Shown piece after piece: positions 6,701-64,000 of a stretch of 64,000 nucleotides of DNA. Source of the DNA: Corallium rubrum (lineage: Eukaryota; Cnidaria; Anthozoa; Scleralcyonacea; Coralliidae); the NCBI GenBank assembly GCA_964035015.1, contig OZ036000.1, forward strand, positions 8,602,759 through 8,666,758, written 5' to 3'. The notes under the pieces were generated by a model. It searched no databases. It saw only the letters and a list, made by a program, of their open reading frames with translations, and had not been told where the DNA came from. The first letter of the stretch is position 1, and the number at the start of each line of letters is the position of its first letter. The translations under genes and the position numbers were made by a program.

Positions 6701-9700
6701 ATTTCAGGCCAAAGATATAGGCAATAAGTTAAGCTTTTTGAGACGGTCGGAGTATTCAGAGATTGCGGTTCAGAGAGTGAGAAGGAGGTGCGATGTGGAA
6801 GAACGTGTATATATACGAGAGGAAAATAGGAACTGTATTAGAAAATTCAGGGCTCGTTCTTCGTGTACCGGATACAGAATACGTCACAGCTACATTTTGT
6901 ACCAGACGCAAAGTTTTGGAATCAGTTGAATTGCTCCGTTCTTTTAAACAGGGCTCCTGTCTAAATATTGTTTAAAAATAAATAAATAAAATTTAAAAAT
7001 CGCTAAATTTTGCATTAAACATGAATTGAAGTATTCCTTGAAAAATTAAGCGAATATTTTTTTGAAAACCAAAGCAATCCAACTGATTCCAAACTTCTGT
7101 GTTCGGTACACGAAGTAGAAGCCGAATTCGAATTCGGGCTCTTAAGGATCAGAGAGGTGTTAAGGGACGTGATGTGGAAGAACATTGAGGATCAGAGGGG
7201 TGATAAGGAGATGTTATATCGAAGAAAGTGTGCAACTGTACACGAGAGGGTAATAAAAACTATATAATTCTAACTTTGAGGATCAGAGAGGTGATATGGA
7301 AGAAAGTGTATATGAGACGATAATAATAACTAGATTAGAATTCAGAACTCCTGTTCATCTTGCTTTTATTATAATTTAGATGAACATGGACACGAATCCA
7401 TTCGAAGCAGGACTTGGATTTTTCATCAAACTTGATAAGGTGGGTACAATCATAGTCTATTTAAGAAATGGCTCATGGTTTAGCGTGCTCCCTCGAGTTA
7501 TGGATGCACGCGGGAAATTGGGAGAGCACGAAAAAATCGTAAGAGTTGGTCGAGGCGTAGCCGCGACCAACTCTAGATTTTTTAGTGCTCTCCAAATTTC
7601 CCAAGTACATCCATAACTCGATGGAGCACACTAAACCATGAGCCATTTCTTTTATAACATAGCATTAAATCCTTTCACAAGCCGGCGAATCGTTTTGGTT
7701 GTTGTGTTTTTCTACTTTCGTAGCCAAGTCTCTTTTGTTCACTAAAATCCAACCAAAGGACAGTTTAAACTCGGTTAATCAGACCCAGTTTATGCCTTCT
7801 GGGTCGTTGTTCTTTATTACTCAATAAAATTAAATGGCTCTGTATTTTGAACTCAATTTAAACTCAGTTTTGTTTTGAAATTTTCTCCCGCGCTTTTTTT
7901 GCCGTGCTCCATCGAGTTATGGAGCACGCACGACAGCCAATCAAAACTGTTGCTATATAAAAGCTATGTTATAATAAGAGATGGTCTGGAAACTCAGCAA
8001 AACTCTTTGTTCTATCTTTTTATTCCCATGTTTATGCAAACTTCTGCACGGTGAGAACTATGTATTTGTGGTATAATGAAGCAGTCATCCAATAGCAGCG
8101 TTCAGGTTCAATCGCTCAACCGTGTTATTATTACTCTGGCTACCTGTAGTAGGCCGAGGTGTTCTTGCACATTATTGGTAGATTTTGTGATTGCTGCAAT
8201 AACACTACAATCAGCATATTTTACCCAAACAACGCCTGACCCAGGCGTCTTGTTGAAATATTAGAGAGCTTAAGCATATTAGGCGTTTTTGAGACACGGA
8301 CGGTGACCGGAAGAACAGGAATATAATACAGAACTACTGAACCGCGTATTCTTTGAAAAGACTTCTTTACCCAAAACAAAGGCTATAAATAATAATCACA
8401 TATCTAAACCGTTAGCTCATAAGCTCAAATTTTATCTTTATGTAAAAATACAGATCCTTTATTTTATATTGTAATGTAATGAAATTATCCCCTTAAAATA
8501 CAAGCTTTCTACTTTAAAAGCATGTATATTGTAGTTAAACAACGATGACAGGCCTCAACGTTCTAGAAGTTCCCGTTGTCGCAAGAACGTCAAAATGCTC
8601 TCAATGACGTCTTGTGTAGAACCTCGTGTAGAACGACGGCGTTCACTTTGCTCTTGGGATTTTACATTGCTCATTATAATTGTTTTGAATGAAAAATGCT
8701 ATTGAATTCAATCGCCGTCCGTGGCTCTAAAACGCCTGTATGCTTAAGCTCTCTATTAATTAGGGAAAAACAAAAGGTTTGTGCACGGTGAAAACCGCCT
8801 CAACATCAAATCACAGCTAATAGGCGTTAGGAAGTTTGCCGAGTTTCCAGACCATATGTTGATTGACTCTCGTACAATCTGGATGTTGTGCGTTATCAAA
8901 AGTCAATGTATCATAAGATCGTGCATATAGTCTAACTTTATAAAAATCTTTTATAGCCGACTGATTTCATTGGCAAGGAAGCCTTGAAGAAGATCAAGGA
9001 AGATGGTTTGACTCGAAAGTGTGTTTGCCTCACTGTTGACACCAGTGATGTAGACCCTGAAGGAGATGAAACAGTTTGGCAGAACGGAAAGGTACCTTAC
9101 TCCTATTTCTAATATTGATCATAACATTTATTTACCCAAAAATCATTTTAAAATCATAAAAATGCGGCCCCAAGCAATGTTATATTATTAGTCATTATCC
9201 TTCAATGAACCGGACTGTGTTCCGAATCGCATTAAATCTGAAACTCCGAACCGTCTATACTACTTCAGCGGTTGCCAGATTATGTTTTCCCGCCATTTTG
9301 TATCGCACTCCATATTTTGTATCCATAGCGTAGGTTTTAGAGAACCCGAGCACTTAGTTGAGACAGAGTTGGAAAAAGTATTCAACCTTCCTCTGGATGA
9401 GTTTTTAAGTTTAGATAACCTTCCTCAAAATATATAGCGAGAATTTTGTGTTTTGCAACGTTCATAAAACTGCGTGACTTTTACAGTACCTTGGTTTTCT
9501 AGGTTTTCCTATATAGGTAAGCTTTGGCACACTACAATAGCTACTAATAACTGACCGCTGCCTACTAACTACCCTCGACTGCTGTGAAGATACAGACATC
9601 ACAGCAGACATCAGCGTACATGTCTCACACATGTAACTGCTGCCACTGCCAGTGCTGCATAATTGTTGGTTAGCCAATGTTTTGCTGGTCAGTTGTAACT

Positions 9701-25778: not shown

Positions 25779-26284
25779 CCCCCTGAACAAGTCATGCATG
25801 CAGACGGGAAAGGTACGTGCCTGCCCTAAATTAACGACCCCCCCCCCCCCCCCTCAAAGTAGCGACCATAAAGGCTGTTATGAATGCGTAATTTATTATC
25901 TCATGTGCATCAAATAAATTCCCAAACGCAGCCAGGTGAAGAATCAAACATAGTTTAACGCTACTCTGGATCGGAGTGTCGAAACGTTGCCACGTTGGGT
26001 CATGCCAATTGAACAGTAACTTTTTAAGCTACTTTCAAAACACTTTTAAGCCACATCGCATGTTGAGGAAGGCCTTGTTGAGGACCGAAGTCGTACTAGT
26101 TACTGCTTTCATATTTGTGGCCGATATCGCCAGCGGAATTGCCGGCGGAAATTTTTGAAATCTCATGCTTTCTAGAATACTATTTTATTAATAACTAGAA
26201 GTTACTACCGCAAGTGAAGTGCTGCCTCGAAAGGGACAAAAACCTTTAGCCTACTCCACAGGCAAATATCTGCAGTCTGTGACC

Positions 26285-26800
26285 AATGTGACACCCCTCT
26301 TGCCCACTCCACCCAAGATTACCCACACCACCCAAGATTGCTCACACCACTCAAAACTGCCCCCTCTACCCAAGATTACCCACACCACCCAAGATTGCCC
26401 ACTCCACCCAAGATTTCCCACTTCACAAGATTTCCCACTTCACCTGAGATTGCCCACTCCACCCGATATTACCCACTCCACCCAAGATTGCCCACTCCAC
26501 CCAAGATTGCCCACTCCACCCAAAATTGCCCACTCCACCCAAAATTGCCCACTCCACCCAAAATTGCCAACTCCACCCAAGATTGCCGACTCCACCCAAG
26601 ACTGCTGACTCCACCCAAGATTGCCCACTCCAACCAAGATTGCTCACTCCACCCGAGATTGCCCACTCCACCCAAGATTGTCCACTCCACCCAAAATTGC
26701 CCACTCCACCCAAGATTGTCCACTCCACCCAAAATTGCCCACTCCACCAAAGATTGCCCACTCCACCTAAGATTACCCATTCCATCCAATTTTTTCTCAC
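26285..26800. repeat. 19-bp minisatellite CCCACTCCACCCAAGATTG
   Basis: About 25 copies, with AAAATTG and GATATTACC variants. The period is not divisible by 3, so all frames cycle through the same PTPPKIAHST-like pseudo-peptide. Absent from unit B of the duplication. Confidence 0.95.
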
Positions 26801-27278
26801 CTCTTCACCATAAGAGCCCACAGAGTTGCCTTTCGAAGAAGACTGGGAAGTCCAAAAATGTAATATTAATTACAAAAAAAAATGGATTACAATGTGCTTA
26901 CAAATAGCTGCATAGGTTGCAAATTTACAAAATGGATAATACTATATTTACAATAAAAATTTAATTATGTAAGACAAGTGTAATGATCATAATTTAAAAG
27001 TTCAAAAAAGAGTCACAACGACATACATGTATTTAAAACTCGAATCATACTTGGAAAAAAGCTTTTCTTAAAACGATCAGTTCTACATTTGAACGAGCAT
27101 TTATTCTTTTTATGCTAATTTTCGATAATGTAAGCACTGTATTTTGATACTAACAAGTTGAATTAAGGTAAGTCTACGGCCCTGATATTTATTTACTAAT
27201 AAAAACTTTGGCGAAATGTCAACGTAGTTTGTCTTACATACATTCCAAGCATACCACAGTTCTGAATTGATCAATATA

Positions 27279-27822
27279 CAGGGTGTATAAAAAAAAGGCT
27301 ACCCTTAGAAAATATAATTAACATTCTTTTCAAATAACCTATTGTATATTGACAGCCCTGGACACCTCTGAAGTCACGGATGCGTAAAAACAAATGGTTT
27401 TATACACCTGGGAAATTAAGATAACTTGAAGTGTATGCATGGTGAAAGTATTAACTATTCAGTAACAGCTTTCCTTCTTGTTTAACTGATGTGCTGATGA
27501 ATTTATAACGAAGCACTAAACCTTGTATACTTTGTGACTGGGTATAAGTTACTACAATAAATACGCGTTCCTCTGTGGTCAGTTGAACCATTTTTAATCG
27601 AACTGATATGAATATAATTAACATTTTTATTTCAGTTATGCTCCTTCATTACTTCATACGTTTAGAAGTTATCGTAATTTCCCAGGTGTATACGACCATT
27701 TGTTTTTTACGCATCCGTGACTTCAGAGGTGTCCAGGGCTGTCAACTGGAATATACAATAGGTTATTTGAAAAGAATGTTAATTATATTTTCTAAGGGTA
27801 GCCTTTTTTTTGATACACCCTG
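27279..27822. mobile_element. TA-target TIR element, 544 bp (Tc1/mariner-type)
   Basis: Ends CAGGGTGTATAAAAAAAAGG and TTTTTTTTGATACACCCTG; inverted arms extend about 140 bp. Flanked by TA on both sides. Unit B at 33688-33700 has the uninterrupted site with one TA fewer, which proves the boundaries and the 2-bp duplication. No transposase ORF. Confidence 0.93.
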
Positions 27823-28315
27823 TATATGGTCAGGTCGGTCCTTATAGATGAATCTAATAAGTTATACTGTTGCTTTGATTGTCACCCGGTGCTGAGATTG
27901 TATATCGATTTGTGTAATGGAATATTTAGGGTCGAGAATGAACCCTTTCATGGCAAAAAGTTTGACGATTGATGAAACCAGTACTAGTGCAAAATTCAAA
28001 TTTTTCTGCACTTTGCTATACAATGCACCACATGGAGCTTTCAAGACTACCCTGCGAAGCGACTTTCTTTTGTTCGAATTCAATAGATTTCTGATTAATT
28101 CCAGCTCAGAGCTCATGAGACAAAAGAAATAGTCGCTTCGCGCGGCGAAAATATGCGCCTAGTGGAGAACTGCCTTAACAATGCGATATCACCGCCAACC
28201 TGAAATGAACAAGATCTCGTATTCTCACTGTTTATATCAACCAAAATTATCGTTAGTCTTCTTCTAAACTCCGTGGTTATGAAATGAAACGATCGTTAAA
28301 AGACATCTTATTAAT

Positions 28316-28615
28316 CATAGTCAATCGAGATATGGTCTGGAAACTCAGCTAAAGTCTTTGGTCTGTCTTTTTGTTCGCCTTTATGCATTTTTGTGCACGG
28401 TGCACGGTCACTGAACATATTGTATTTTAGTATAATGAACGAGTTGTCCAATAGCAACGTTTCAGTTCAATCACTCAACCGTGCTATTTAAATATTAATA
28501 AACCTAAAACAAAGGATGTGCACGGTGTAAGGTACGGTTCAACATAAAATCACAGCTCATTATTAGGTGCTTTGAAGTTTGCCGAGTTTCCAAGACCATA
28601 TCTCGATTGACTATG
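28316..28615. mobile_element. TIR element with 7-bp TSD, copy 1 (300 bp)
   Basis: Ends CATAGTCAATCGAGATATGG and CCATATCTCGATTGACTATG. TATTAAT flanks both sides (28309-28315, 28616-28622). Unit B has a single TATTAAT in the empty site (around 34161). Internal GTGCACGGTGCACGGT and CTCAACCGTGCTATTTAAA. Non-coding. Confidence 0.93.
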
Positions 28616-28760
28616 TATTAATAAAGCCGTATATACGTCAAAAATGTACTGGCCAAATGATATCATATCAATAGTTCTCCGGCGCTGTCTGAGTACTTGA
28701 AACAATGGCGTTTGCACTAGACGAACTGATAAAAATAGCCGTCCTTGTTACTACTCAAAT

Positions 28761-29155
28761 CAGGGGCGTAGGAAACAGGGGGCCGGGGGGGGGGGGGGGG
28801 GCGGCCCCCCCAATATTTTGTAAAGGGGGGCCGGAATAGCTTTTGGCCCCCCCAAAAAATAATAGAATTTAAAAAAATTGCATTATAAGTGCGACTTCGA
28901 TTGTAGGCTCGATTTCCAGCCTTAAGGCTGGAAACCGAGCCTACTTCGATTGCGGTGATCGGCCAATTAATAATAATCCATCCTGACTGACAAATTAAAA
29001 TGAAAGAATTAATGAAAGGGCCTAACGAAAGAGGTAGAGGAGACTCTGAAAATGCCATTTCCGACGATCTAGAGACTCCAAATTTTCAAAAAATTTCCGC
29101 TTGGCGCTTCGTGGGAGTCCGCCCCCCTAAGTTTAGCAAGCTTCCTACGCCCCTG
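28761..29155. mobile_element. hAT-type MITE (CAGGGGCGTAGGAA), copy 2
   Basis: Same family as 25421-25778; flanked by an exact 8-bp ACTCAAAT (28753-28760, 29156-29163). It contains a 15-base G run, and an extra internal inverted segment AGGCTCGATTTCCAGCCTTA not in copy 1. Confidence 0.92.
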
Positions 29156-29159
29156 ACTC

Positions 29160-29600
29160 AAATCAGTAGAGCGAAACATGGACGATGTTTTCATCGCTTC
29201 CGAAGCGGAGCTATCATTTCCTTCAAATTATGAAGCTTAACCAACTACTAGAAACCTCACCCCCATACCCCCCGGAAACCCTAAACCTAATCACACACCC
29301 CGGAAACCCTAAACCTAACCACAACCCTCCGGAAAAATGACCTTTATGTGTTCAAGTTTAACATCCCGCTTGTGGGATGGTTTTATTAGATGGTTAAGCT
29401 TCATAATTTGAAACCGATGATACCTCCGAAGCGACAGTTTCATTAACCACAGATCAATCACGAGGTGTATTTTTATGTACCACGTGATAAGTTACGACTT
29501 AACGATTGGATGTTTATCACGTGGTACATGAGAATACACCTCGTGATTGCTTTGAAATATGATCTGCGGTTAATAAAACTGACACTTCTCTACTGATTTG
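29160..29600. mobile_element. Nested inverted-repeat element upstream of MFSD6-like copy 1
   Basis: AAATCAGTAGAG at 29160 and CTCTACTGATTT near 29590 are inverted. Inside, AAATTATGAAGCTTAACC matches GGTTAAGCTTCATAATTT (29220/29390), and ATCACGAGGTGTATTTT matches in inverse at 29530-29550. Absent from unit B. Confidence 0.75.
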
Positions 29601-29811
29601 CGTAGTTACTTATTAGAATCGCAAAACTAATACCTTCTACAATGCTAAATTGTATGTCACGCATCAATTCCAAAGACCCGCTCAACCGTTTTCTGTTCAT
29701 CATTTCTGTTCAAAAGAACATTTAACACCAGCTAGAGTGGTCGATAGTCTTAACTACGCGCGTCGCGTACTCCATAACTCCAAGTATCAGGGCATACTGA
29801 TAGAAAGAAAG

Positions 29812-31072
29812 ATGTGCTCTCTGTCTGGGACAGCTTTGCCTCTTAAGTGGAGTTATTTCTTTACTCTGGCAAGTATGGCTGTTTTTGAAGAATATTCTCC
29901 ATTGTATTTCAAACAACTTGGCTTCAGGGCTTCGCAGATAGGATTCACATCACTCATGGGGATTCCGTTGTTATTTGTACCTCTAATTGGACTTTTGGGA
30001 GACAGTTTCCGCGCGAGAAAATTGCTTTTAGTTATTTTACTACTGATATTTATTACAGTATATCTAGCACCTCTCCTGCCAATAATCATTCCATTTGAGA
30101 AATGCAACGAAGCGTCCAAACGTAGTTTGTCACCAAATGACACAAGCGTTTACTGGAAAGAAAGTATCTACTTTAAAAATACCACCCGAGGATCCAAGCT
30201 GGTTAACAAGTCAGATTTGAGTCTTTGGCGATTCTCAGTGCCCAGTGTGCATGTTAACGTTGGAATCCATTCAATGAACCGGAACGCAACGGAAAGCAAA
30301 TCAATGAACAAAGAAAAATATTTATCTTGGACGAGTTCGATTTTCATTTATATTGTCGTGGTTAGAGGAATATACGAAATTCTGAAAAGATCAGTTTTAC
30401 TAATGTACAATGTCTCGACGATGAGTTATCTAAAGAATGATAGGGCAGGGTATGGTAGTGTCTTCTGCTGGGGTCATATTGGAGGCATGTTTCTCTTCCT
30501 CGCTGTGGGTATTACAGTCACATTTACAACGCTGACGTACTGCACAAGTGTGTCGCATGGTTATTATGTGGTGTATTTTTGGTCGAGCTTTGCAGTGTTC
30601 ATGGCACTACCAGTTCTACCTTGGATAACCTTCGAATACTTTGAGCATCGAGTGGTCAATTGGTCTGATGTCAGAAGCGTTATCTTCGAATGTCATTATC
30701 TGGTTGTACTCTTCGTGGCTGCCACCCTTGGCTGTTGTTTTTCATTTCAACAATATTGGGAGTGCTGGTACATCGCTGAACTTTCAGGCGGCCCTGTTAT
30801 CATGATGGTTACAGGTTTACTACGTCGGCCTATTTTAGCAGTGTCGTTTCTGTCCTCACGATTTATTATTGATAAACTAGGAGATCTTCAGACTATGGCA
30901 CTGGGATTATTCGTAGGTGCTGTTTCCTTGTTAGCGTTGTCGTTTATACGAACTCCCTGGCTTGTTTTTGTCATTGATATTCCACTGTCGACAGCATATG
31001 CTATTTCGCTGTCGGCTTCAATCATCCATTTTTCAAAGGCTGGTTCGAAAGCTTCTTCTGCAGTAATTATTG
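29812..31072 (+). CDS. MFSD6-like copy 1, exon 1
   Basis: 420 codons plus 1 nt. Donor ATTATTG/GTAAGA; without splicing the frame would stop 3 codons later. Encodes helices 1 to about 10. Confidence 0.9.
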
Positions 31073-32451
31073 GTAAGAAATAAACCATATAATATAACAA
31101 TCTGAGTCGGGGTAAAACGTAGTTCATTTGAGCATGAGGCTGAAGCAGCGGGCAGCCGTAGTAAACATAACATGTCTGATTTCAGAAACTTTTTAATGTT
31201 TAGGTATTATATAAGGATATGAAAAAATTTGCTCACCAATTACCCTTGACAATAATCCTAAATGTAGTGTCTAAAAATAATGAACTCAAAACATGAAAAA
31301 AACAAAACAGTCCCAGCCTATGTTATCTTCCCGTTATGCTTTAATGGGCACGGTGTAATTTGCATAGGGGCCCAAACTGAAGGGGGAAACTAATTTGCAT
31401 GTGGGCCTAAATGAAACAACGATTTGGTCTATAAGTCAGTTGCACGATCAGTTGCGCACGCATCATTTTGGTGAATACTAAAATTGCAACAGTTTTCTTC
31501 ACAACAACAGTTTTCTTCACAACAACGTTGCGTTGCAAGTTGAAAAGCGTTGTTGCACGTATTACCACCCAACTAGTTAAACATTGTCACGCAACAATGA
31601 TTTTGTTGCAAGTTGAAGAAATTTGTTGGAAAAAAGTAACATGCTCTTTCAAGTTTCAACTTGAAACAAAATCGTACTTGCGTGACAATGTTTAAGGTGG
31701 GTGGTAATACGTGCAACGCAACAATGTTGCAGCCGAATTTGTTGCTCCCATTACTTCACCTTTATTCTATGCAAATATTTTTGCATAACTCCGGTGCAAG
31801 TGCAATCGAGCATTTTATTCATTCAAACATGTGCAAGTATTGTGAGCTACAATCATTGACAAAATTAGTTGAAACAACTCAGGTGAATCATGCCATGTTA
31901 ATTGCTAAGCCTCTTTTTTGCATAAATTGCTATCCCCTTGTCCCTTCTTTTCAATGTTGATACTCTGAACATTTAAAAGTAATGACAGGTGACTGAGTGC
32001 AAATTGGACGCGTTTTGAGTTCCACAACATTGAAGCGGGGGAAAGGGGGGACATGAAACCGTTTCATGTTAACTTTGTTTCAAGAATTATGTCAATGATT
32101 GTAGCCTGCTTAGCGGGATCGATGACTCGTTTTCTTGAACATTTCTAATAACCCGATGGCCGAGGAATGCAGTCGCTGAGTGTCCTCTTGGTATTGCTAT
32201 TATTATCGTTATGATTATTATTTCTCTATTTTAAAGGATTGGTGGACGCAACGTTTTGCTTTGGAAAAGAAGCTGGTTCGACATGTATGGGCGCACTTTT
32301 TACTGTAATTGGACCAAAAGCATGTCTGCGTTACTACGCTCTTGGATTTTCTGTTGTTTTTATGTTTTTTATTGCCTACTTAATATTTAGACGCAAACAT
32401 CTTGACCAATACAAAAAGCTTCCCGACATCGACAGTGATGACGAGATATAG
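29812..32451 (+). CDS. MFSD6-like major facilitator transporter, copy 1
   Basis: Predicted 12-helix membrane carrier of the MFS_1-like (MFSD6/MFSD6L) group; substrates of the family are not established. CDS joins 29812-31072 and 32237-32451: 491 residues. ATG 29812 starts MCSLSGTALPLKWSYFFTLA. The upstream extension to 29650 opens with TTG and has in-frame indels between the paralogs, so I exclude it. Helix 1 runs into FEEYSPLYFKQLGFRASQIG and the loop DSFRARK (MFS motif A-like). A long extracellular loop after helix 3 has several N-glycosylation sites (NDTS, NTT, NKS, NAT). The C-terminal exon gives CFGKEAGSTCMGALFTVIGP, the last helices and an acidic tail PDIDSDDEI. Shorter than vertebrate MFSD6 (about 790 residues), closer to MFSD6L-like forms. 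No stops or frameshifts, and about 98% identical to copy 2. Confidence 0.88.
31545..31727. repeat. TTGCAAGTTG-rich palindrome in copy 1 intron
   Basis: GTTGCACGTATTACCACCCA and its inverse TGGGTGGTAATACGTGCAAC bracket 183 bp, with AAACATTGTCACGCAA and TTGCGTGACAATGTTT inside. Also present in unit B, where a piggyBac-type element split it. Confidence 0.85.
32237..32451 (+). CDS. MFSD6-like copy 1, exon 2
   Basis: 215 nt after acceptor TATTTTAAAG; completes Gly across the junction, then LVDATFCFGKEAGSTCMGAL and on to the acidic C-terminus, TAG... stop at 32449-32451. Confidence 0.9.
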
Positions 32452-32520
32452 AGTCGTACGATAATTGCTGATATTGCTGGGTGATGATTATTATATAATT
32501 GCATATTGCCGGGTGATGAT

Positions 32521-32555
<35 letters not shown>

Positions 32556-32621
32556 AGTGAGTTTTGGTTCACAAAATGTTAGAGAGTGCTCAATACGATA
32601 TAGATAGAGCAAAATACAAAG

Positions 32622-32753
32622 CATGAAGTATAGTTACCTTAAAGTCTTCGCTACCAGAGGTTTCACCATAAACGGGATCATCAGGCGACTCTGATGATCC
32701 CATTTAGGGTGAAACCTCTGGTAGCGAAGACTTTAAGGTAACTATACTTCATG
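32622..32753. repeat. Palindrome beside (TA)n, copy 1
   Basis: CATGAAGTATAGTTACCTTA and its inverse end a 132-bp near-perfect hairpin with centre ATCAGGCGACTCTGAT. One arm reads CTGATGATCCCATTTAGGGT then GAAACC, resembling a hammerhead core. It follows a (TA)n tract (32521-32548) and the spacer GTGCTCAATACGATATAGAT. Confidence 0.9.
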
Positions 32754-32999
32754 GATTGTCAAAACGTTGCCACGTTGGGTCATGCCAATTGAACAGTAAC
32801 TTCTTAAGCTACGTTCAAAAAACTTTTAAGCCACATTGCATGTTGAGGACCTCCTTGAGGACCGATAAAAGTCGTACTAGTTACTGCTTTCATATTTGTG
32901 GCATATCGCCAGTGGAATTGCCGGCGGAAATTTTTGAAATCTCATGCTTTATAGAATACTATTTTATTAATAATAATAATAGTTATTTCATGATTGAGT

Positions 33000-33260
33000 C
33001 GGTTTTCTTTGATGTACCACGGGCTGTATATAGCATACAGCCCTTGAACACCAATTAGAAAAGAAATGAAGAAAAAAACTAGGAAAATCTTTGTCCAAGG
33101 TAGAAAAAAAGACATATCTTTGTTGGAAAACCTCCTCGATCATGAAATAAGTAAAAAAAAAACCTCGAATGTCGGGATGTATGCGATATACAGCCCTCGG
33201 ACGCTTCGCATCCTCGGGGCTGTATATAGCATACATCCCTCGTTCTCGGGCTTTATCTCG
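33000..33260. repeat. Unit B-specific segment with CTGTATATAGCATAC motifs
   Basis: GGGCTGTATATAGCATACAG near 33024 and GCTGTATATAGCATACATCC near 33220, with ATTTCATGATTGAG/CTCGATCATGAAAT in inverse. It looks like a decayed inverted-repeat insertion absent from unit A. Confidence 0.55.
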
Positions 33261-34433
33261 TACTTAAGGTAATTTAATGGCACATCATCGCAAAAAAAAT
33301 GAATTACAATGTGCTTACAAATAACTGCATAGGTTGCAAATTTACAAAATGGATAATACTATATTTACAATAAAAATTTAATTATGTAAGACAAGTGTAA
33401 TGATCATAATTTAAAAGTTCAAAAAAGAGTCACAACGACATACATGTATTTAAAACTCGAATCATACTTGGAAAAAAGCTTTTCTTAAAACGATCAGTTC
33501 TACGTTTGAACGAGCATTTATTCTTTTTATGCTAATTTTCGATAATGTAAGCACTGTATTTTGATACTAACAAGTTGACTTAAGGTAAGTCTACGGCCCT
33601 GATATTTATTTACTAATAAAAACTTTGGCGAACTGTCAACGTTTGTCTTACATACATTCCAAGCATACCACAGTTCTGAATTGATCAATATATATGGTCA
33701 GGTTGATCCTTATAGATGAATCTAATAAGTTATACTGTTGCTTTGATTGTCACCTGGTGCTGAGATTGTATATCGATTTGTGTAATGGAATGTTTAGGGT
33801 CGAGAATGAACCCTTTCATGGCAAAAAGTGTGACGATTGATGAAACCAGTACTATTGCAAGATTCAAATTTTTCTGCACTTTGCTATAAGTACAATGCAC
33901 CACATGGAGCTTTCAAGACTACCCTGCGAAGCGACTTTCTTTTGTTCGAATTCAATAGATTTCTGATTAATTCCAGCTCAGAGCTCATGAGACAAAAGAA
34001 ATAGTCGCTTCGCGCGGCGAAAATATGCGCCTAGTGGAGAACCGCCTTAAGGTTGCGAATAAAGAATGCGATATTCTCACTGTTTATATCAACCAAAATT
34101 ATCGTTAGTCTTCTTCTAAACTCCGTTGGTATGAAATGAAACGATCGTTAAAAGACATCTTATTAATAAAGCCGTGTATACGTCAAAAATGTACTGGCCA
34201 ACTGATATGACATCAGTCTGAGTACTTGAAACAATGGCGTTTGCACTAGACGAACTGATAAAAATAGCCGTCCTTGTTATGCTAAATTGTATCAATTCCA
34301 AAGACCCGCTCAACCGTTTTCTGTTCATCATTTCTGTTCAAAAGAACATTTAACACCAGCTAGAGTGGTCGATAGTCTTAACTACACGCGTCGCGTACTC
34401 CATAACTCCAAGTATCAGTGCATAGAAAGAAAG

Positions 34434-35694
34434 ATGTGCTCTCTGTCTGGGACAGCTTTGCCTCTTAAGTGGAGTTATTTCTTTACTCTGGCAAGTATGG
34501 CTGTTTTTGAAGAATATTCTCCATTGTATTTCAAACAACTTGGCTTCAGGGCTTCGCAGATAGGATTCACATCACTCATGGGGATTCCGTTGCTATTTGT
34601 ACCTCTAATTGGACTTTTGGGAGACAGTTTCCGCGCGAGGAAATTGCTTTTAGTTATTTTACTACTGATATTTATTACAGTATATCTAGCACCTCTCCTG
34701 CCAATAATCATTCCATTTGAGAAATGCAACGAAGCGTCCAAACGTAGTTTGTCACCAAATGACACAAGCGTTTACTGGAAAGAAAGTATCTACTTTAAAA
34801 ATACCACCCGAGGATCCAAGCTGGTTAACAAGTCAGATTTGAGTCTTTGGCGATTCTCAGTGCCCAGTGTTCATGTTAACGTCGGAATCCATTCAATGAA
34901 CCGGAACGCAACGGAAAGCAAATCAATGAACAAAGAAAAATATTTATCTTGGACGAGTTCGATTTTCATTTATATTGTCGTGGTTAGAGGAGTATACGAA
35001 ATTCTGAAAAGATCAGTTTTACTAATGTACAATGTCTCGACGATGAGTTATCTAAAGAATGATAAGGCAGGGTATGGTAGTGTCTTCTGCTGGGGTCATA
35101 TTGGAGGCATTTTTCTCTTCCTCGCTGTGGGTATTACAGTCACATCTACAACGCTGACGTACTGCACAAGTGTGTCGCATGGTTATTATGTGGTGTATTT
35201 TTGGTCGAGCTTTGCAGTGTTCATGGCACTACCAGTTCTACCTTGGATAACCTTCGAATACTTTGAGCATCGAGTGGTCAATTGGTCTGATGTCAGAAGC
35301 GTTATCTTCGAATGTCATTATCTGGTTGTGCTCTTCGTGGCTGCCACCCTTGGCTGTTGTTTTTCATTTCAACAATATTGGGAGTACTGGTACATCGCTG
35401 AACTTTCAGGCGGCCCTGTTATCATGATGATTGCAGGTTTACTACGTCGGCCTATTTTAGCAGTGTCGTTTCTGTACTCACGATTTATTATAGATAAACT
35501 AGGAGATCTTCAGACCATGGCACTGGGATTATTCGTAGGTGCTGTTTCCTTGTTAGCGTTGTCGTTTATACGAACTCCCTGGCTTGTTTTTGTCATTGAT
35601 ATTCCACTGTCGACAGCATATGCTATTTCGCTGTCGGCTTCAATCATCCATTTTTCAAAGGCTGGTTCGAAAGCTTCTTCTGCAGTAATTATTG
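34434..35694 (+). CDS. MFSD6-like copy 2, exon 1
   Basis: Same length and donor (ATTATTG/GTAAGA) as copy 1. Confidence 0.9.
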
Positions 35695-37980
35695 GTAAGA
35701 AATAAACCATATTGCGCATACAATCTGAATCGGGATAAAAAGTAGTTCATTTGAGCATGAGGCTGAAGCAGCGGGCAGCTGTAGTAAACATAACATTTCT
35801 GATTTCAGAAACTTTTTAATGTTTAGGTATTATATAAGGATATGAAAAAATTTGCTCATCGATTATCCTTGACAATAATCCTAAACGTAGTGTCTAAAAA
35901 CTGTAATGAACTCAAAACATGAAAAAAACAGTCCCAGCCTATGTTATCTTCCCATTATGCTTTAATGGACACGATGTAATTTGCATAGGGGACCAAACTG
36001 AACGGGAAACTAATTTGCATCATAGTCAATCGAGATATGGTCTGGAATCTCAGCTAAAGTCTTTGGTCTATCTTTTTATTCGCCTTTATGCATTTCATTG
36101 TGCACGGTGCACGGTCACTGAACAGTCTGAACACATTGTATTTTAGTAAAATGAACGAATTGTCCAATAGCAACGTTTCAGTTCAATCACTCAACCGTGC
36201 TATTTAAATATTAATAAACCAAAAATAAAGGATGTGCACGGTGTAAGGTACGGTTCAACATAAAATCACAGCTCATTATAGGCGCTTTGAAGTTTCCCGA
36301 GTTTCCAGACCATATCTGGATTGACTATGTTTGCATGTGGGCCTAAATGAAACAACGATTTGGTCTATAAGTCAGTTGCACGATCGTTGCGCGCGCATCA
36401 TTTTGGCGAATACTAAAATTGCAACAGTTTTCTTCGACTCTCAACGCAACTTTGTTGCGTTGCAAGTTGAAAAGCGTTGTTGCACGTATTACCACCCATC
36501 TTAAACACTGTCACGCAACAATGATTTGGTTCGGTAAGTTGAAGAAATATGTTGGAAAAAAGTAGAGTCCAGTTCTACTTGCTGCAACATGCTCTTTCAA
36601 CTTGAAACAAAATCATACTTGCGTGACAATGCATGTTTAACCCTATCCAGACTGGGCTTTTTTTTGTCTTCTGGGACTGGGGGGGGGGGGGGGGAGTGCC
36701 CGCGGTCAATATCTCCTGAACCATTTGGTGTATTCCGACGAAACTTTGTGGTGGATGGTATGCCTTGTTCAAGTATGTGTTACACTTATGTTGTCATGGC
36801 GACAAATTATGACGTCATTATGACGTCATTAATTGCAAAAACCCAGGATTTCTAAAATTTCCAAATTTTTATTCCCTATTGTTTTGTTAACATAAAAAAG
36901 GTAGTATATCAAAAAAAATAGTTTCTCTTTATTAAAAAGTGCTTACTCTTATTGTAACTATTATAAAAGCAAACATAATAAAAATTGTCGGCTGAAATTT
37001 TGTGTTGGTAGGTGTTCACGACTCCGCTGTAACTTTTTTTTGGCGTAATATTTTTTCACCAAATTTTCCACACATAAAGCCCATACATATTTAGGAAAAG
37101 TCATAAAATTTCAGAACCATACCTGTACTGGTTTAGGAGATATTAATTTTTAAATTCAGCGCGGGCACTTTCCGCCCCCCCCCCCCCCCCAAGTCTGGAT
37201 AGGGTTAAGGTGGGTGGGTGGGTGGTAATACGTGCAACGCAACAATGTTGCAGCAATTTGTTGCTCGTATTACTTCACCTTTATTCTACGCAAATATTTT
37301 TGCATAACTCCGGTGCAAGTGCAATCGAGCATTTTATTCATTCAAACATGTGCCAGTATTGTGAGCTACAATCATTGACAAAATTAGTTGAAACGACTCG
37401 GGTGAATCATACCATGTTAATTGCTAAGCCTCTTTTTTGCATACATTGCTATCTCCCCGTATCCCCCCGTCCCCCCTTTTCAATGTTGATACTCTGAACA
37501 TTGAAAAGTAATGACAGGTGACTGAGTGCAAATTGGACACGTTTTGAGTTCCACAACATTGAAGCGGGGGAAAGGGGGGACATGAAACCATTTCATGTTA
37601 ACTTTGTTTCAAGAATTATGTCAATGATTGTAGCCTGGTTAGCGGGATCGATGACTCGTTTTCTTGAACATTTCTAATACCCCGATGGCCGAGGAATGCG
37701 GTCGCTGAGTGTACTCTTGATATTGCTATTATTATCGTTATGATTATTATTTCTCTATTTTAAAGGATTGGTGGACGCAACTTTTTGCTTTGGAAAAGAA
37801 GCTGGTTCGACATGTATGGGCGCACTTTTTACTGTAATTGGAGCAAAAGCATGTCTGCGTTACTACGCTCTTGGATTTTCTGTTGTTTTTATGTTTTTTA
37901 TTGCCTACTTAATATTTAGACGCAAACATCTTGACCAATACGAAAAGCTTCCCGACATTGACAGTGACGACGAGAAATAG
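34434..37980 (+). CDS. MFSD6-like major facilitator transporter, copy 2
   Basis: Tandem paralog of the gene at 29812. CDS joins 34434-35694 and 37766-37980: 491 residues, same exon structure and phase. About a dozen substitutions separate the proteins, including Arg/Lys (KNDRAG/KNDKAG), Met/Ile (HIGGM/HIGGI), Phe/Ser in a helix (TVTFTT/TVTSTT), Cys/Tyr (QYWECW/QYWEYW), Val-Thr/Ile-Ala (IMMVTG/IMMIAG), Ser/Tyr (SFLSS/SFLYS), Pro/Ala (VIGPK/VIGAK) and Lys/Glu plus Ile/Lys in the cytoplasmic tail. Both copies are intact, so the duplication is recent or both are maintained. Function as for copy 1 (inferred transporter, substrate unknown). Its intron contains two insertions absent from copy 1. The promoter-proximal DNA differs: copy 1 has about 900 bp of inserted repeats upstream, copy 2 none. 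Confidence 0.88.
36021..36329. mobile_element. TIR element with 7-bp TSD, copy 2 (309 bp)
   Basis: Ends CATAGTCAATCGAGATATGG and CATATCTGGATTGACTATG. TTTGCAT flanks both sides (36014-36020, 36330-36336). Unit A shows the unoccupied single TTTGCAT at 31394-31400. Same family as 28316-28615. Confidence 0.93.
36641..37204. mobile_element. piggyBac-type TTAA element, 564 bp
   Basis: Ends CCCTATCCAGACTGGGC and AAGTCTGGATAGGG; TTAA on both sides. Unit A has a single TTAA at 31692-31695. G run near the left end and C run near the right end. No ORF of note. TTAA plus CCC start fit piggyBac (Kolobok also uses TTAA). Confidence 0.9.
37766..37980 (+). CDS. MFSD6-like copy 2, exon 2
   Basis: 215 nt after acceptor TATTTTAAAG; ends DQYEKLPDIDSDDEK. 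Confidence 0.9.
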
Positions 37981-38051
37981 AGTCGTACGATAATTGCTGA
38001 TATTGCCGGGTGATGCATGATGATTATATAATTGCATATTGCCGGGTGATG

Positions 38052-38055
<4 letters not shown>

Positions 38056-38117
<62 letters not shown>
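38056..38117. repeat. (TA)n microsatellite
   Basis: About 30 TA units, twice as long as the homologous tract at 32521-32548 in unit A. Confidence 0.97.
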
Positions 38118-38124
<7 letters not shown>

Positions 38125-38189
38125 AGTGAGTTTTGGTTCACAAAATGTTAGAGTGTGCTCAATACCATATAGATAGAGCAAAATACAAA

Positions 38190-38321
38190 CATGAAGTATA
38201 GTTACCTTAAAGTCTTCGCTACCAGAGGTTTCACCCTAAACGGGATCATCAGGCGACTCTGATGATCCCATTTAGGGTGAAACCTCTGGTAGCGAAGACT
38301 TTAAGGTAACTATACTTCATG
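38190..38321. repeat. Palindrome beside (TA)n, copy 2
   Basis: Duplicate of 32622-32753, more perfectly paired (one loop-proximal base differs). Flanked by (TA)n on both sides (38056-38117 and 38329-38344). Confidence 0.92.
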
Positions 38322-42672: not shown

Positions 42673-43242
42673 CTATAAGTTACCATTCTCCATTAAATTA
42701 TTAAGACCATCAGCGACTTCTTTCAATACATCCTCATAAGCGTCACTTTGAAAGAGCTTATCGAGTAGTTCGCCATTTGAAAAATAATCAAATACATGGT
42801 CTACCCTACCGTGCGACTTCTGCGTCAGGTGCGACGATATAAGTTTGTGGAGTGACTTCTTCGCTTCGTCCAAGGAATGCTTGAGGAAAGGGCGATCGTA
42901 GGAAAAGTCCACCTCGTGAAAGCTAACGATAGTCATTGCTGTTGTCCTGAATTGACTGCGGAACGTCTGGGCGGTCTTGATGTCCTCGTCGTTGAACTGT
43001 TTGTTTCTATATAACACTCCAATTTTTACGGCTATTTTGATCAGATCCTTCAACAACTTCTCCGCTTCTTTCTTACTCCCGGTGTCTCGCTTCGCAATGA
43101 TGTACAATTGATCAAACAGTCCACTGGTCGTGTCGTCCACAAACACTTTCGCCATGTTCTTGTTGCTCACAATTTTACCCAGCACCTTCTTTTGAGCTTG
43201 GATGGCGAAATTCTTCGAATTAAAATGTCCCGACTCGGCCAT
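42673..43242 (-). CDS. TNFAIP8: TNFAIP8/TIPE family protein
   Basis: 189 residues, the normal family length, in one exon. TIPE proteins carry a hydrophobic lipid-binding cavity and act as phosphoinositide-transfer and signalling proteins in cell survival, migration and inflammation. ATG 43240-43242 gives MAESGHFNSKNFAIQAQKKV; the longer frame upstream to 43323 is unconserved and crosses a good acceptor (TTATTCTTCAG at about 43254), so a 5'UTR exon lies upstream. Conserved segments seen: FNSKNxAxQAQKKxLGK, KKEAEKLLKDLIKIAVKIGV, LYRNKQFN, TAMTIVSFHEVDFSYDRPFL, and the signature SHGRVDHVFDYFS. Which vertebrate paralog (TNFAIP8, L1, L2, L3) it corresponds to cannot be decided; invertebrates usually have one ancestral gene. 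The 3'UTR probably covers part of 41.8-42.67 kb. Confidence 0.95.
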   Translation of the reverse strand: MAESGHFNSKNFAIQAQKKVLGKIVSNKNMAKVFVDDTTSGLFDQLYIIAKRDTGSKKEAEKLLKDLIKIAVKIGVLYRNKQFNDEDIKTAQTFRSQFRTTAMTIVSFHEVDFSYDRPFLKHSLDEAKKSLHKLISSHLTQKSHGRVDHVFDYFSNGELLDKLFQSDAYEDVLKEVADGLNNLMENGNL

Positions 43243-43329
43243 CTTATCTTTTCCTGAAGAATAAACGGCCCCAGTGTTAATAAGGAAATATGAAAGTGAG
43301 ACAGCAGGCGCACGGTGGGGCAACTCGTT

Positions 43330-44560
43330 GTTATTTCACAAGTCGTTTAAACAGCCTTCTGTCACTCACTGGGCGGGTGGTTTACACAACGAAGTTCATA
43401 CAGTATTAACAACCTACCTTTTGTATAAAAAACTAAACAGGTCTTCCCTCGGAGCCCTTGGATTTTTTACTTCAAAAGCGCCAATTGCAACAACCTTTAT
43501 ATACAACTAAATATTGCGGAACTAGCCTGTGTATATATATAATGACTCTATGTGGGCAGTAACAGACAGCGAGAGATCCACCACGCCACGCTGACCTTCA
43601 GTATAAACAGCGGGGAAGGATTTTCCGTTGAGGTAAAGTGCGATATATTGGCCTGAGAGGGCAGGCAGCTAATGCAGAGCGCAAAACTTCACTTTAACTC
43701 CGGCCTTCAAACTGCTGAAATTGACATCGCATATTAAGTCACATGACCATAATAATTTCTGTTTGAAACTTTAAATATATCTAAACGCCGGTAGGTGGTA
43801 ATCAACCAGATGTGCGGCCCTTGTGAGAAAGGCTTTTTTCCAAGGCCGGACAAATTATAAATGTAAGATAATTAAATTTCAAAATGGCCAAAAAAAAAAC
43901 AACGACGGGTGGAGATTAATAATGGAGGTGTTTTATAGTGAAGTGGGAAAAAACCCTATGGCCTTTTAATGTCCGTGTATTTAAAAGCTCCCTGATAATT
44001 ACTATCTGAGGAAGATGATGAAGTGAGAGCTCTTGTGAAATACACCTGCTTACGTGCTTTGTTGCCAAGGGAACAGTGGTAGGAACAAAGATTAATATAA
44101 AAAAAGTCAATGTGCAGCTTGGCGAAGACTTTTGAAAGGCTTGCTTGCTAATTGAAAGCATTTTTGCGATATTTAAATCTACAGATGGGAAATAATATAT
44201 ATTGAAAGAACTTGTGTTGTAAAATAGAACCCATGTAACACAAATAAAATGCGAAAACATTGGTAAATTAATGTGGCGATAAGGTGCGTTTCAGGGCGCT
44301 ATACTACTCCAACGCGTCTCATTCCATTCAATGATTACGGTGGACAAATAGTTGTCATTTTAGCTTTCGAAGCCGAAATCTATTAATCCTATAGTCTATC
44401 CCGTAGAATTATAAAGACAATTTACTGACATATTAGGATTATGAAAATAATCTTCGGCGATAAAAACTACAGATTCTCGAAGACATTGATATTATCATAT
44501 ATCTTGCCAATTTGCTTTTCACAAAACAAGTCAATCTGTATTTCTGCTGTAACTGTAAGT
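43330..44560. other. Upstream region of TNFAIP8 gene
   Basis: No coding exon recognised. It should contain the 5'UTR exon and promoter, but I cannot place them. Confidence 0.4.
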
Positions 44561-51068: not shown

Positions 51069-51143
51069 GAGTTCGCAAGCGGGGTTTGAACCCACAACCT
51101 TCTGATCGCCGGAGAGACGCTCTAACCATTGAGCTACTGGGAC
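51069..51143 (-). repeat. tRNA-derived SINE head, minus strand
   Basis: On the minus strand GTCCCAGTAGCTCAATGGTT then AGAGCG, a 7-base loop, AGAAGGTTGTGGGTTCAAACC. D-arm and T-arm consensus (A and B boxes) are recognisable, but the anticodon stem is imperfect and the 3' acceptor is not complementary, so this is SINE-like rather than a tRNA gene. Confidence 0.65.
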
Positions 51144-51564: not shown

Positions 51565-51655
51565 AATCCCAGTAGTTCAGTAGTAAGAGCATCTCACTGT
51601 CGATCAGAAGGTTGTGGGTTCGAGTCCCGCTTGGAAACCCAAAATTGTTTCTGAA
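51565..51655 (+). repeat. tRNA-derived SINE head, plus strand
   Basis: TCCCAGTAGTTCAGTAGTAA, GAGC, loop containing GTC, then GGTTGTGGGTTCGAGTCC with a perfect B box (GGTTCGAGTCC). Followed by TTCTGAATAAAATGG, which mirrors CCATTTTATTCAG next to the minus-strand copy. Confidence 0.65.
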
Positions 51656-54070: not shown

Positions 54071-54323
54071 ATTATTCTGCATGTATACTGAACTGCAAAA
54101 GGAGCACCACAATTATGAAGTATTTGTTAAACAGTGCTATAAATATCTGCTTCTCCATGATAATAGCCTGTGCACAGCCTGAAATATCCCTGTATTACAG
54201 TCTGTGAAAACTCACGCGATAGCTTGTCGAACCCCCGCGAAGCTACCCAGATCTGAGTAGTAGATTCTGATTGGCCAAAGCAACATCAGCTTCACTTCCT
54301 CTCAAGAAATGATAAATTCAACA

Positions 54324-55694
54324 TGGCCGAAAGTCCAAACTGTGAAACTGCATTCGGGAAAGCGACCAAAAGAAGTGTGTACATAACGTTTTTGCAATTA
54401 CAGCATTATTCGACAAACAAAAAGAGGCTTTACAGAGCTTCTTTTCAAAGCGTGATACACGTCATACTCCCAAAACTGTTATGGGAAATCACTGATATTT
54501 CAGTCTATACCGATCATGGCAGATATTATCTACAAGAGAGCAAGAGGCAGCAGCATAATGCTTGTTATATCTCCCCTAAAATCTCTTATGGAAGATCAAG
54601 TACGTGGATTAAAGAAGCTTAACATTTCCGCAGTGTGTGTAAAAGAATGACCAATGGCGAGTTTACCCATGTTTATGGCTTGGCTCGCTCGAGTGCTTGC
54701 TGACAATACATCAACATCAACATGGAGAGGTATTCTCTCAAGTAAGACATTTAAAGACTTCCTGGAGTGTGTTGCGGTCGATGAGACACATTGTATTAGC
54801 CAGTGGTAAGTAATTTTGTAAATATTATTGGGTCACCTATTTAAGTATAAATAACTTTCACATTTACAGTATATAACATAAATGCTCTGATAACTTACTG
54901 TGCGAAATATTTACATGTAAGTTTGAGAGAATTATTCAACATATTAATATACATATATCCCTATAAAAGTATATTCACTACAAAACGATTGCCTCTTGCG
55001 TTTCATATTTAGTTTGTTTTAGTCTCAGTGGGTCATCTCATGAAATATCATCTGGCCTCTGTTAGCAACTAGGCATTAATAGGATAATAGTATCCCTATT
55101 TGAACCCCCCTCTTTTAATATTAATATAGGGATAAAAATAATTGTCTGTAACTTCAGTGAAATGAGGTCTCTCATTCCTGAGAGTGTCCACTTAATTGTT
55201 GTAACGGCGACAGCTACAAAACAGTCTCACCTTGCAATATATATATGACTTATATATGAGCTTAAGGTTATGTAAACAAACTGCAATAGTATCTGAGAGC
55301 TCCCAATAGATCCAATATTTTCTACTGTGTTCAGTACATTAATAAAGACATTCCATTCCATTTATTATTTACTGATATCATAAAGGAAATCGAAACCAAT
55401 CACGTGACAGCTAAGAGGCCAATCATATTATCAGACAAGGAAACAATGTGGGCCTTTATACGGGGTACTCGAAGTCACTCTTAGAAGCAAATTTTAAAAG
55501 GGTCATCTCACAAGCCCACAAGGTGTCTTGTTGAAGTGTGTCATGCTGGAACCCTAAATTCTGTTAAAAAGCACATTTCGAAGAATCTGTCAAAAAGTGA
55601 TGGACACATCAGAATTCTAATCTCTACTATTACCTTTGGGATAGGTATAAATTGCCAGGATGTATCATACACTTTGGTTCATCAAATAGCATAG
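54324..55694 (+). pseudogene. RecQ-like DNA helicase pseudogene
   Basis: RecQ enzymes are 3'-5' DNA-unwinding ATPases. In + orientation, exon 54324-54805 starts MAESPNCETAFGKATKRSVY, then loses frame inside the Walker A region (VILP in one frame, YGKSLIFQ in the next). It recovers IMLVISPLKSLMEDQVRGLK (motif Ia), hits stops, and ends VAVDETHCISQW (DEAH-box of RecQ, here DETH) at donor CAGTG/GTAAGT. After the intron, 55539-55694 reads CHAGTLNSVKKHISKNLSKS then RILISTITFGIGINC (motif V), followed by a frameshifted IIHFG. Several stops and frameshifts make it dead. The frameshift in motif I is shared by both palindrome arms, so it predates the inversion duplication. The helicase C-terminus is absent. 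Confidence 0.8.
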
Positions 55695-55887
55695 AGTGTT
55701 ATGTGTATAAAGAACAAAGAATGACTTCAAATACCCTGTATAAAAGCCCACATTGTTTCCTTGTCTGACAATATATGATTGTCCTTCTTAGCTGTCATGT
55801 GATTGGTTTCAATTTCCTTTATGATAATAAATGGAATGGGAATGCCTTTATTAATGTCCTGAACAGAGTAGAAAATATTGGATCTGT

Positions 55888-56069
55888 ACACCTTATTCAA
55901 AAATGGCCACCAAATTAGAATTCTTTTATGTGCATATAAATTAGCCCTTATGACCTCGTTTCAAAGTAAGAATTCTTTTGAATTTCCCACATGAAAACGA
56001 GTTCATAAAGGCTAATTTATATGTATATAAAAGAATTTTAATTCTGCAGCCATTTTTGAATAAGGTCTA
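55888..56069. mobile_element. Short TIR element (ACCTTATTC), copy 2
   Basis: ACCTTATTCAAAAATGGC and GCCATTTTTGAATAAGGT bracket about 180 bp with TAGCCCTTATGACCTCG. The left palindrome arm is uninterrupted here (around 55305). Same family as 39570-39740; TA flanks suggest a TA target. Confidence 0.85.
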
Positions 56070-56553
56070 TTGGGGGCTCTCAGATACTATTGCAGTTTGT
56101 TTACATAGCCTTAAGCTGTCATATATTGCAAGGTGAGACTGTTTTATAGCTGTTGCTGTTACAACAATTAAGTGGACACTCTCAGGAATGAGAGACCTCA
56201 TTTCACTGAGGTTACAGACAATTATTTTTATCCCTATATTAATATTAAAAGAGGGGGGTTCAAATAGGGATACTATTATCCTATTAATGCCTAGTTGCTA
56301 ACAGAGGCTAGATGATATTTTGTGAGATGGATCCACTGAGACTAAAACAAACTAAATATGAAACGCAGGACTAGAGGCAATCGTTTTGTAGTGAATATAC
56401 TTTTATAGGGATATATGTATATTAATATGTTGAATAATTCTCTCAAACTTAAATATTTCGCACAGTTATCAGAGCATTTATGTTATATACTGTAAATGTG
56501 AAAGTTATTTATACTTAAATAGGTGACCCAATAATATTTACAAAATTACTTAC

Positions 56554-57036
56554 CACTGGCTAATACAATGTGTCTCATCGACTGCAACACACTCCAGGAA
56601 GTCTTTAAATGTCCTACTTGAGAGAATACCTCTCCATGTTGATGTTGATATATTGTCAGCAAGCACTCGAGCGAGTCAAGCCATAAACATGGGTAAACTC
56701 GCCATTGATCATTCTTTTACACACACTGCAGAAATGTTAAGCTTCTTTAATCCACGTATTTGATCTTCCATAAGAGATTTTAGGGGAGATATAACGAGCA
56801 TTATGCTGCTGCCTCTTGCACTCTTGTAGATAATATCTGCCATGATCGGTATAGACTGAAATATAAGTGATTTTCCATAACAGTTTTGGGAGTATGGCGT
56901 GTATCACGCTTTGAAAAGAAGCTCTGTAAAGCCTCTTTTTGTTTGTCGAATAATGCTGTAATTGCAAACACGTTATGTACACACTTCTTTTGGTCGCTTT
57001 CTCGAATGCAGTTTCACAGTTTGGACTTTCGGCCAT
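56554..57036 (-). pseudogene. RecQ-like pseudogene, inverted first-exon copy
   Basis: Right-arm mirror of the 54324-54805 exon: MAESPNCETAFEKATKRSVY, the same motif I frameshift, LKSLMEDQ in the shifted frame and DETHCISQW. It lacks the motif V exon because that lies only in the spacer. Confidence 0.8.
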
Positions 57037-57172
57037 GTTGAATTTATCATTTCTTGAGAGGAAGTGAAGCTGATGTTGCTTTGGCCAATCAGAATCTACT
57101 ACTCAGATCTGGGTAGCTTCGCGGGGGTTCGACAAGCTATCGCGTGAGTTTTCACAGACTGTAATACAGGGA

Positions 57173-63874: not shown

Positions 63875-64000
63875 CTGAAAACAGAAAAAATGTGAAAGTG
63901 CGAAAAAATTGACAGACGAATACAAATTAGGAACTACTCTGAATTATATCGCAAGCGTGACTGGAGAAGGGAGATGGTATGGTAATGACTACGAGATATA

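Follow-up and report, generated by a model that had tools for sequence, protein, structure and literature searches.

A probable tandem duplication of an MFS_1_like transporter gene in Corallium rubrum, with a palindrome at its right edge and DNA transposon insertions in both units

Introduction

Two adjacent and slightly divergent gene copies in an assembled sequence may be the product of a duplication or two alleles placed end to end by the assembly, and the insertions by which they differ are read differently in each case. We address this question for a pair of transporter genes in a 64,000-nucleotide stretch of Corallium rubrum DNA (contig OZ036000.1, hereafter the window). The window is animal-like, with an intron-bearing gene in two copies, a TNFAIP8-family protein and several DNA transposon relics. 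An earlier note, made from the sequence alone, had described two tandem units of about 6 kb with near-identical genes, in which every insertion faces a clean empty site at the matching position of its partner. Here we examine the units, their borders and their insertions, and weigh how the pair may have arisen.

Results

Self-comparison and base-level alignment of the window reveal two adjacent, collinear units lying head to tail in the same orientation, which bears out the description of two tandem units of about 6 kb with near-identical genes:

25973..32753, plus strand: duplication unit A, 6,781 bp
32754..38321, plus strand: duplication unit B, 5,568 bp, adjoining unit A without N or spacer

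The left edge of unit A is ambiguous by a few bases (approximately 25963-25973, by eye), and the right edge is common to both units as far as ...CTTCATG, after which the sequences diverge. N is absent across the whole window, hence there is no assembly gap at the A/B junction, where microhomology amounts to 1-2 bases at most (by eye). The alignments show six differences above 100 bp between the units, four of them clean.

Both units carry a gene of two exons encoding 491 amino acids, with the frame intact and free of internal stops. The exon borders are predicted from GT-AG signals and the open frame:

29812..31072, plus strand: exon 1 of the A gene (MFS_1_like, PF12832)
32237..32451, plus strand: exon 2 of the A gene, through the stop codon
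34434..35694, plus strand: exon 1 of the B gene (MFS_1_like, PF12832)
37766..37980, plus strand: exon 2 of the B gene, through the stop codon

Exon 1 matches the Pfam family MFS_1_like (PF12832) at E 1e-23 and 84.4 bits in A and at E 1.9e-23 and 83.6 bits in B (cut-off 25.2), while the exon 1 protein gave no match to solved structures up to E 10 and nothing in NCBIfam. MFSD6-like, the name given in the earlier note, seems a fair one for these predicted transporters. The motifs AATAAA, ATTAAA and AGTAAA are absent from the A stop codon to the end of unit A and from the B stop codon to 39500.

The two genes are distinguished by 21 of 1,476 coding bases, 1.4% rather than the roughly 2% reported before, and by 11 of 491 residues. 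Alignment of the units and Ks had been proposed as a check on the duplication: the units align, and dS over the full coding sequence is 0.030 (bootstrap 0.014-0.050). The corresponding dN is 0.0098 (0.0044-0.0161), and dN equals or exceeds dS in 0.8% of 1,000 bootstraps. At noncoding positions 73 of 2,304 sites differ (3.2%, over ten blocks with 10 columns removed on each side of gaps); twelve unmasked blocks with coding sequence included give 144 of 4,230 (3.4%). The mismatches are clustered when coding and noncoding sites are pooled, with a longest identical run of 230 (P 0.043) and a length-weighted run statistic matched in 0 of 1,000 shuffles. Gene conversion or small rearrangements could have caused this clustering.

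The four clean differences are insertions flanked by target duplications, given here without strand:

27279..27822: 544-bp element in A, TA target duplication at 27277-27278, B site empty; Tc1/mariner-like MITE by structure
28316..28615: 300-bp element in A with inverted ends, 7-bp target duplication TATTAAT at 28309-28315, B site empty
36021..36329: 309-bp element in B, 7-bp target duplication TTTGCAT at 36014-36020, A site empty
36641..37204: 564-bp element in B with ends CCCTATCCAGACT, TTAA target duplication at 36637-36640, A site empty; piggyBac-like MITE by structure

All four duplicated targets (TA 27277, TATTAAT 28309, TTTGCAT 36014 and TTAA 36637) are present where the earlier note had placed them. 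The two insertions in A lie upstream of the gene and the two in B within the intron. We assessed the empty sites by joining the 60 + 60 bases that flank each insertion and matching them to the other unit, where all four joined flanks find a match with the target present once. The alignments are gap-free at the TA site (112 columns, 98.2%) and at the TATTAAT site (108 columns, 94.4%), and contain 2 gap bases at the TTTGCAT site (122 columns, 94.3%). At the TTAA site (106 columns, 85.8%) there are 14 gap bases because small length differences adjoin TTAA.

The two other large differences involve the following features:

28751..29605: 855-bp Harbinger-like block in A, TTA target duplication, inverted ends CTACTCAAATCAGTAGAG / CTACGCAAATCAGTAGAG
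28761..29155: 395-bp hAT-like element nested in the Harbinger-like block, 8-bp target duplication ACTCAAAT
26196..26874: A-only stretch of 679 bp, containing a 19-bp minisatellite at 26300-26789

Unit B is without the Harbinger-like block and without 34 further flanking bases. The joined flanks of the block fail to match B across the site, and we rejected it as a fifth clean insertion; both an insertion in A and a deletion in B are possible. The place of the A-only stretch is held in B by an unrelated 317-bp stretch (32975-33291). The claim of a clean empty site for every insertion thus stands for the four named elements and fails for these two differences.

We assigned the elements to families by their target duplications and ends. 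The TA element has the TA target duplication and inverted ends of a Tc1/mariner MITE, with inverted arms of approximately 150 bp that align with 146 matches, 3 mismatches and 3 gaps. The TTAA element is piggyBac-like, with a TTAA target duplication and inverted ends beginning CCC, the end motif of the piggyBac family. The nested element at 28761-29155 shows the marks of hAT elements, an 8-bp target duplication (ACTCAAAT) and ends CAGGGGCG. Just left of unit A, the segment 25421-25778 is approximately 71% alike to this nested element and is flanked by 9-bp direct repeats CCCCCTGAA; as these are one base over the hAT length, the hAT assignment is structural and not firm. The block around the nested element is PIF/Harbinger-like, with a TTA target duplication and with inverted ends that differ at one base (by eye, the left one being followed across the nested element); PIF/Harbinger elements are described with TTA/TAA target duplications and inverted ends of 14-25 bp (PMC2213677).

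The two elements with 7-bp targets belong to one family, aligning with 288 matches, 11 mismatches and 5 gaps, and both begin CA. Their inverted ends and 7-bp targets agree with the 7-8 bp target duplications of the P superfamily, and they may be called P-superfamily-like by target length only; for Galileo, target duplications of 7 bp and in some cases 8 bp have been reported (PMC4168063). Since this pair is one family, the four insertions represent three families: several families are present as had been claimed, yet the insertions are not all unrelated. Elsewhere in the window, approximately at 7977-8868, lies an older and longer relative of the 7-bp-target family, with two end pieces 71-82% alike to the copies in A and B and short reading frames only (longest 69 aa).

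From the empty sites each event can be polarised as an insertion, with the exception of the TTAA element, as precise excision of a piggyBac element from TTAA also yields an empty site. If the units separated at the duplication, their divergence sets an upper bound, and only that, on the age of the insertions. Between the two 7-bp-target elements 11 of 299 sites differ (3.7%), about as much as between the units (3.2-3.4%); the elements are therefore not fresh copies of each other, and nothing here points to a very recent burst. In the TA element the two arms disagree at 3 of 149 sites and are set apart by 3 gaps as well, no more than the units differ, which is in keeping with insertion after the duplication. 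Recent transposon activity, as suggested before, is possible but does not follow: the divergence of the units (3.2% noncoding, dS 0.030) gives an upper bound and no more, and the 7-bp pair is 3.7% apart. Moreover, placing the insertions "since the duplication" presumes that both units derive from one chromosome; had the duplication joined two different alleles, some insertions could be earlier.

At their shared right edge both units end in a near-perfect palindrome:

32622..32753: near-perfect palindrome of 132 bp that closes unit A on the right, with the end of its paired arms at the junction base
38190..38321: its 132-bp counterpart closing unit B on the right, which differs from the A copy at 1 position

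With mismatches tolerated, the palindrome arms lengthen by 6 bases in A and by 17 in B, so that the to-the-base coincidence is limited to the well-paired part. Folded as single-stranded DNA, the segment 32620-32770 reaches -69.7 kcal/mol against a mean of -12.2 in 200 shuffles (z -22.5). The window contains six near-perfect palindromes with arms of at least 30 and spacers of at most 8; all but the two 132-bp copies consist of TA microsatellite. Assuming one ancestral palindrome per ~50 kb, we put the probability of finding either of two breakpoints within 1 base of the end of such a palindrome at ~2.4e-4; it climbs to ~3.6e-3 with all 15 palindromes having arms of at least 12, and both figures are rough, after-the-fact and from a single window.

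For the flanks we compared 373 bp on the left, 429 bp on the right, the last 404 bp of the unit and its first 328 bp. The left flank (373 bp) matches neither the last 404 bp of the unit nor the 429-bp right flank, the right flank has no match to the 328-bp unit start, and right flank and unit end match in (TA)n only. For the stretches compared we reject unequal crossing-over between flanking repeats, as (TA)n is all that the right flank and the unit end have in common. Taken with the palindrome end at the shared right edge, this suggests a palindrome-associated, non-homologous duplication.

Several further features of the window lie outside the units. Between 54187 and 57172 there is an inverted repeat with 1.1-kb arms (54187-55310 / 56066-57172, ~95% alike) and, inside it, a second inverted pair (55308-55482 / 55717-55885); each 1.1-kb arm has a matching 121-aa frame, of which one gave nothing in Pfam and the other a weak, below-cut-off AbpA-like match (E 0.053). 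The window begins with an array of approximately 158 copies of a 14-bp unit ACATCTACACCTCC (6-2173), and a 3.7-kb array of an 11-bp unit TAGAGTAGGAG occupies 59972-63655, where strand asymmetry is extreme (GC skew 0.92 in 60001-64000). The TNFAIP8-family protein is encoded at 42673-43335 on the minus strand (Pfam, E 5.2e-69). A 163-aa frame at 16548-17039 matches GIY-YIG somewhat under the cut-off (E 0.00046; 20.9 bits against a cut-off of 22.6) and may be the end of a Penelope-like element. With arrays omitted there are 55 reading frames of at least 90 aa, and Pfam was given sets of 9, 9 and 5 frames: in one set of 9 none matched up to E 0.1, and in the other set of 9 two did, B exon 1 and a frame with a weak match under the cut-off. 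Rfam at gathering scores found two tRNA matches in opposite orientation (51071-51143, minus strand; 51566-51638, plus strand) and nothing else; ARAGORN calls the second only, as tRNA-Asp.

Discussion

This locus is best read as a tandem duplication into which non-autonomous DNA transposons later inserted. In its full form, a head-to-tail duplication with its breakpoint at the palindrome end, followed by the insertion of four or more such transposons from three families, we consider this account probable. About 5-6 kb with one complete MFS_1_like gene would have been copied head to tail and joined without long homology, the right breakpoint falling at the palindrome end, either where a hairpin or cruciform was broken at its base or where a template switch followed the copying of the palindrome. 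The copies would then have diverged by ~3% at neutral sites, with both genes kept intact under purifying selection, and the transposons would have entered later, two in A and two in B. The two units, the assembled junction, the target duplications with their empty sites, the intact frames and the edge palindrome are read directly; from them we infer that the units are not alleles, in what order the events occurred and that the palindrome had a role.

An unlikely alternative, though the one to be taken most seriously, is a false (heterotype) duplication, in which the assembly joined two alleles end to end and the insertions are allelic polymorphisms. The divergence found here (1.4% coding and 3.2% noncoding) lies within the range of alleles in highly variable animals. 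The right-edge hairpin and TA microsatellite would be where the contig broke, and a palindrome followed by (TA)n is indeed a plausible contig end. False duplicates are most often, and not always, separated by a gap, and some are reported to be joined by sequence that lacks read support, through incorrect gap filling (PMC9516828). The window, however, is free of N, and the two contig ends would overlap by 1-2 bases at most, leaving the assembler little to join. A junction without a gap thus favours a real duplication.

The join could also be real and yet unite two alleles, if the duplication arose between the homologues of a heterozygote and some of the differences predate it. The patchy divergence between the units speaks for this, as does the fact that insertions of one family differ about as much as the units (3.7% vs 3.2-3.4%); within the window, moreover, unit divergence alone dates the duplication. 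We hold this account improbable, as it requires one more step than a duplication from a single chromatid. Far less probable still is that the unit as a whole is mobile, a segment of rolling-circle type that ends in a palindrome in the style of Helitron or Helentron, and that the pair is a product of its transposition. Head-to-tail units that adjoin exactly and end in a palindrome would suit such an origin, but by eye neither matching ends nor an insertion-site signature is seen at 25973 or 38321, and among eight in-unit reading frames compared with Pfam the gene exon is the sole match at E <=0.1. CTRR at the 3' end is a Helitron mark, and the 3' end here does not read CTRR.

Returning to the tandem duplication, what part did the palindrome play? 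Palindromes are usually tied to inverted duplications and to translocations with the breakpoint at the centre. When a hairpin is opened at its tip, as in human palindromic AT-rich repeats, the breakpoint falls at the palindrome centre, whereas here it lies at the palindrome end, which counts against a role for the palindrome. The literature on palindromes and tandem duplication includes reviews of palindromes and work on deletions and amplifications; one paper, on template switching in gene amplification (PMC11790251), may bear on the mechanism of the duplication. Cruciforms are described in a review as cleaved at the base, leaving hairpin-capped ends, and replication forks as stalling at hairpins (PMC7999016). 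We raise, tentatively and with considerable doubt, the possibility that the 132-bp palindrome drove the duplication, its hairpin or cruciform leading to a break or a template switch at its end and from there to a direct tandem gene copy.

If the junction is real, the locus allows one to ask, on a concrete example, whether the borders of direct gene duplications are set by sequences that form hairpins. Each unit also serves as the pre-insertion sequence of the other, so that no repeat library is needed to read the exact ends and targets of three transposon families.

Young tandem gene duplication followed by MITE insertion is a known kind of event, and this locus resembles it in its adjacent intact copies, low dS and noncoding insertion differences. 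We regard it as an ordinary case of young tandem duplication, with transposons inserted in both units; it differs in that the breakpoint lies at the end of a 132-bp palindrome and no flanking repeat was seen, and what is new here is that the right edge of both units coincides with that palindrome end. False heterotype duplications, as reported in PMC9516828, are alike in that neighbouring gene copies differ slightly, to the degree that alleles do, whereas here no assembly gap lies between the copies. The 7-bp-target elements share with Galileo and other P-superfamily elements the 7-bp target duplication and inverted ends (PMC4168063); the likeness is structural only, as transposase or THAP sequence was not recognised in them. 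The empty-site approach is itself already established: related-to-empty sites (RESites) served as evidence of transposon mobility for PIF/Harbinger elements in Medicago, where element-free paralogous copies show a single target and so delimit the insertion (PMC2213677). The present locus differs from that use of RESites in that one tandem pair gives four reciprocal empty sites, two per unit.
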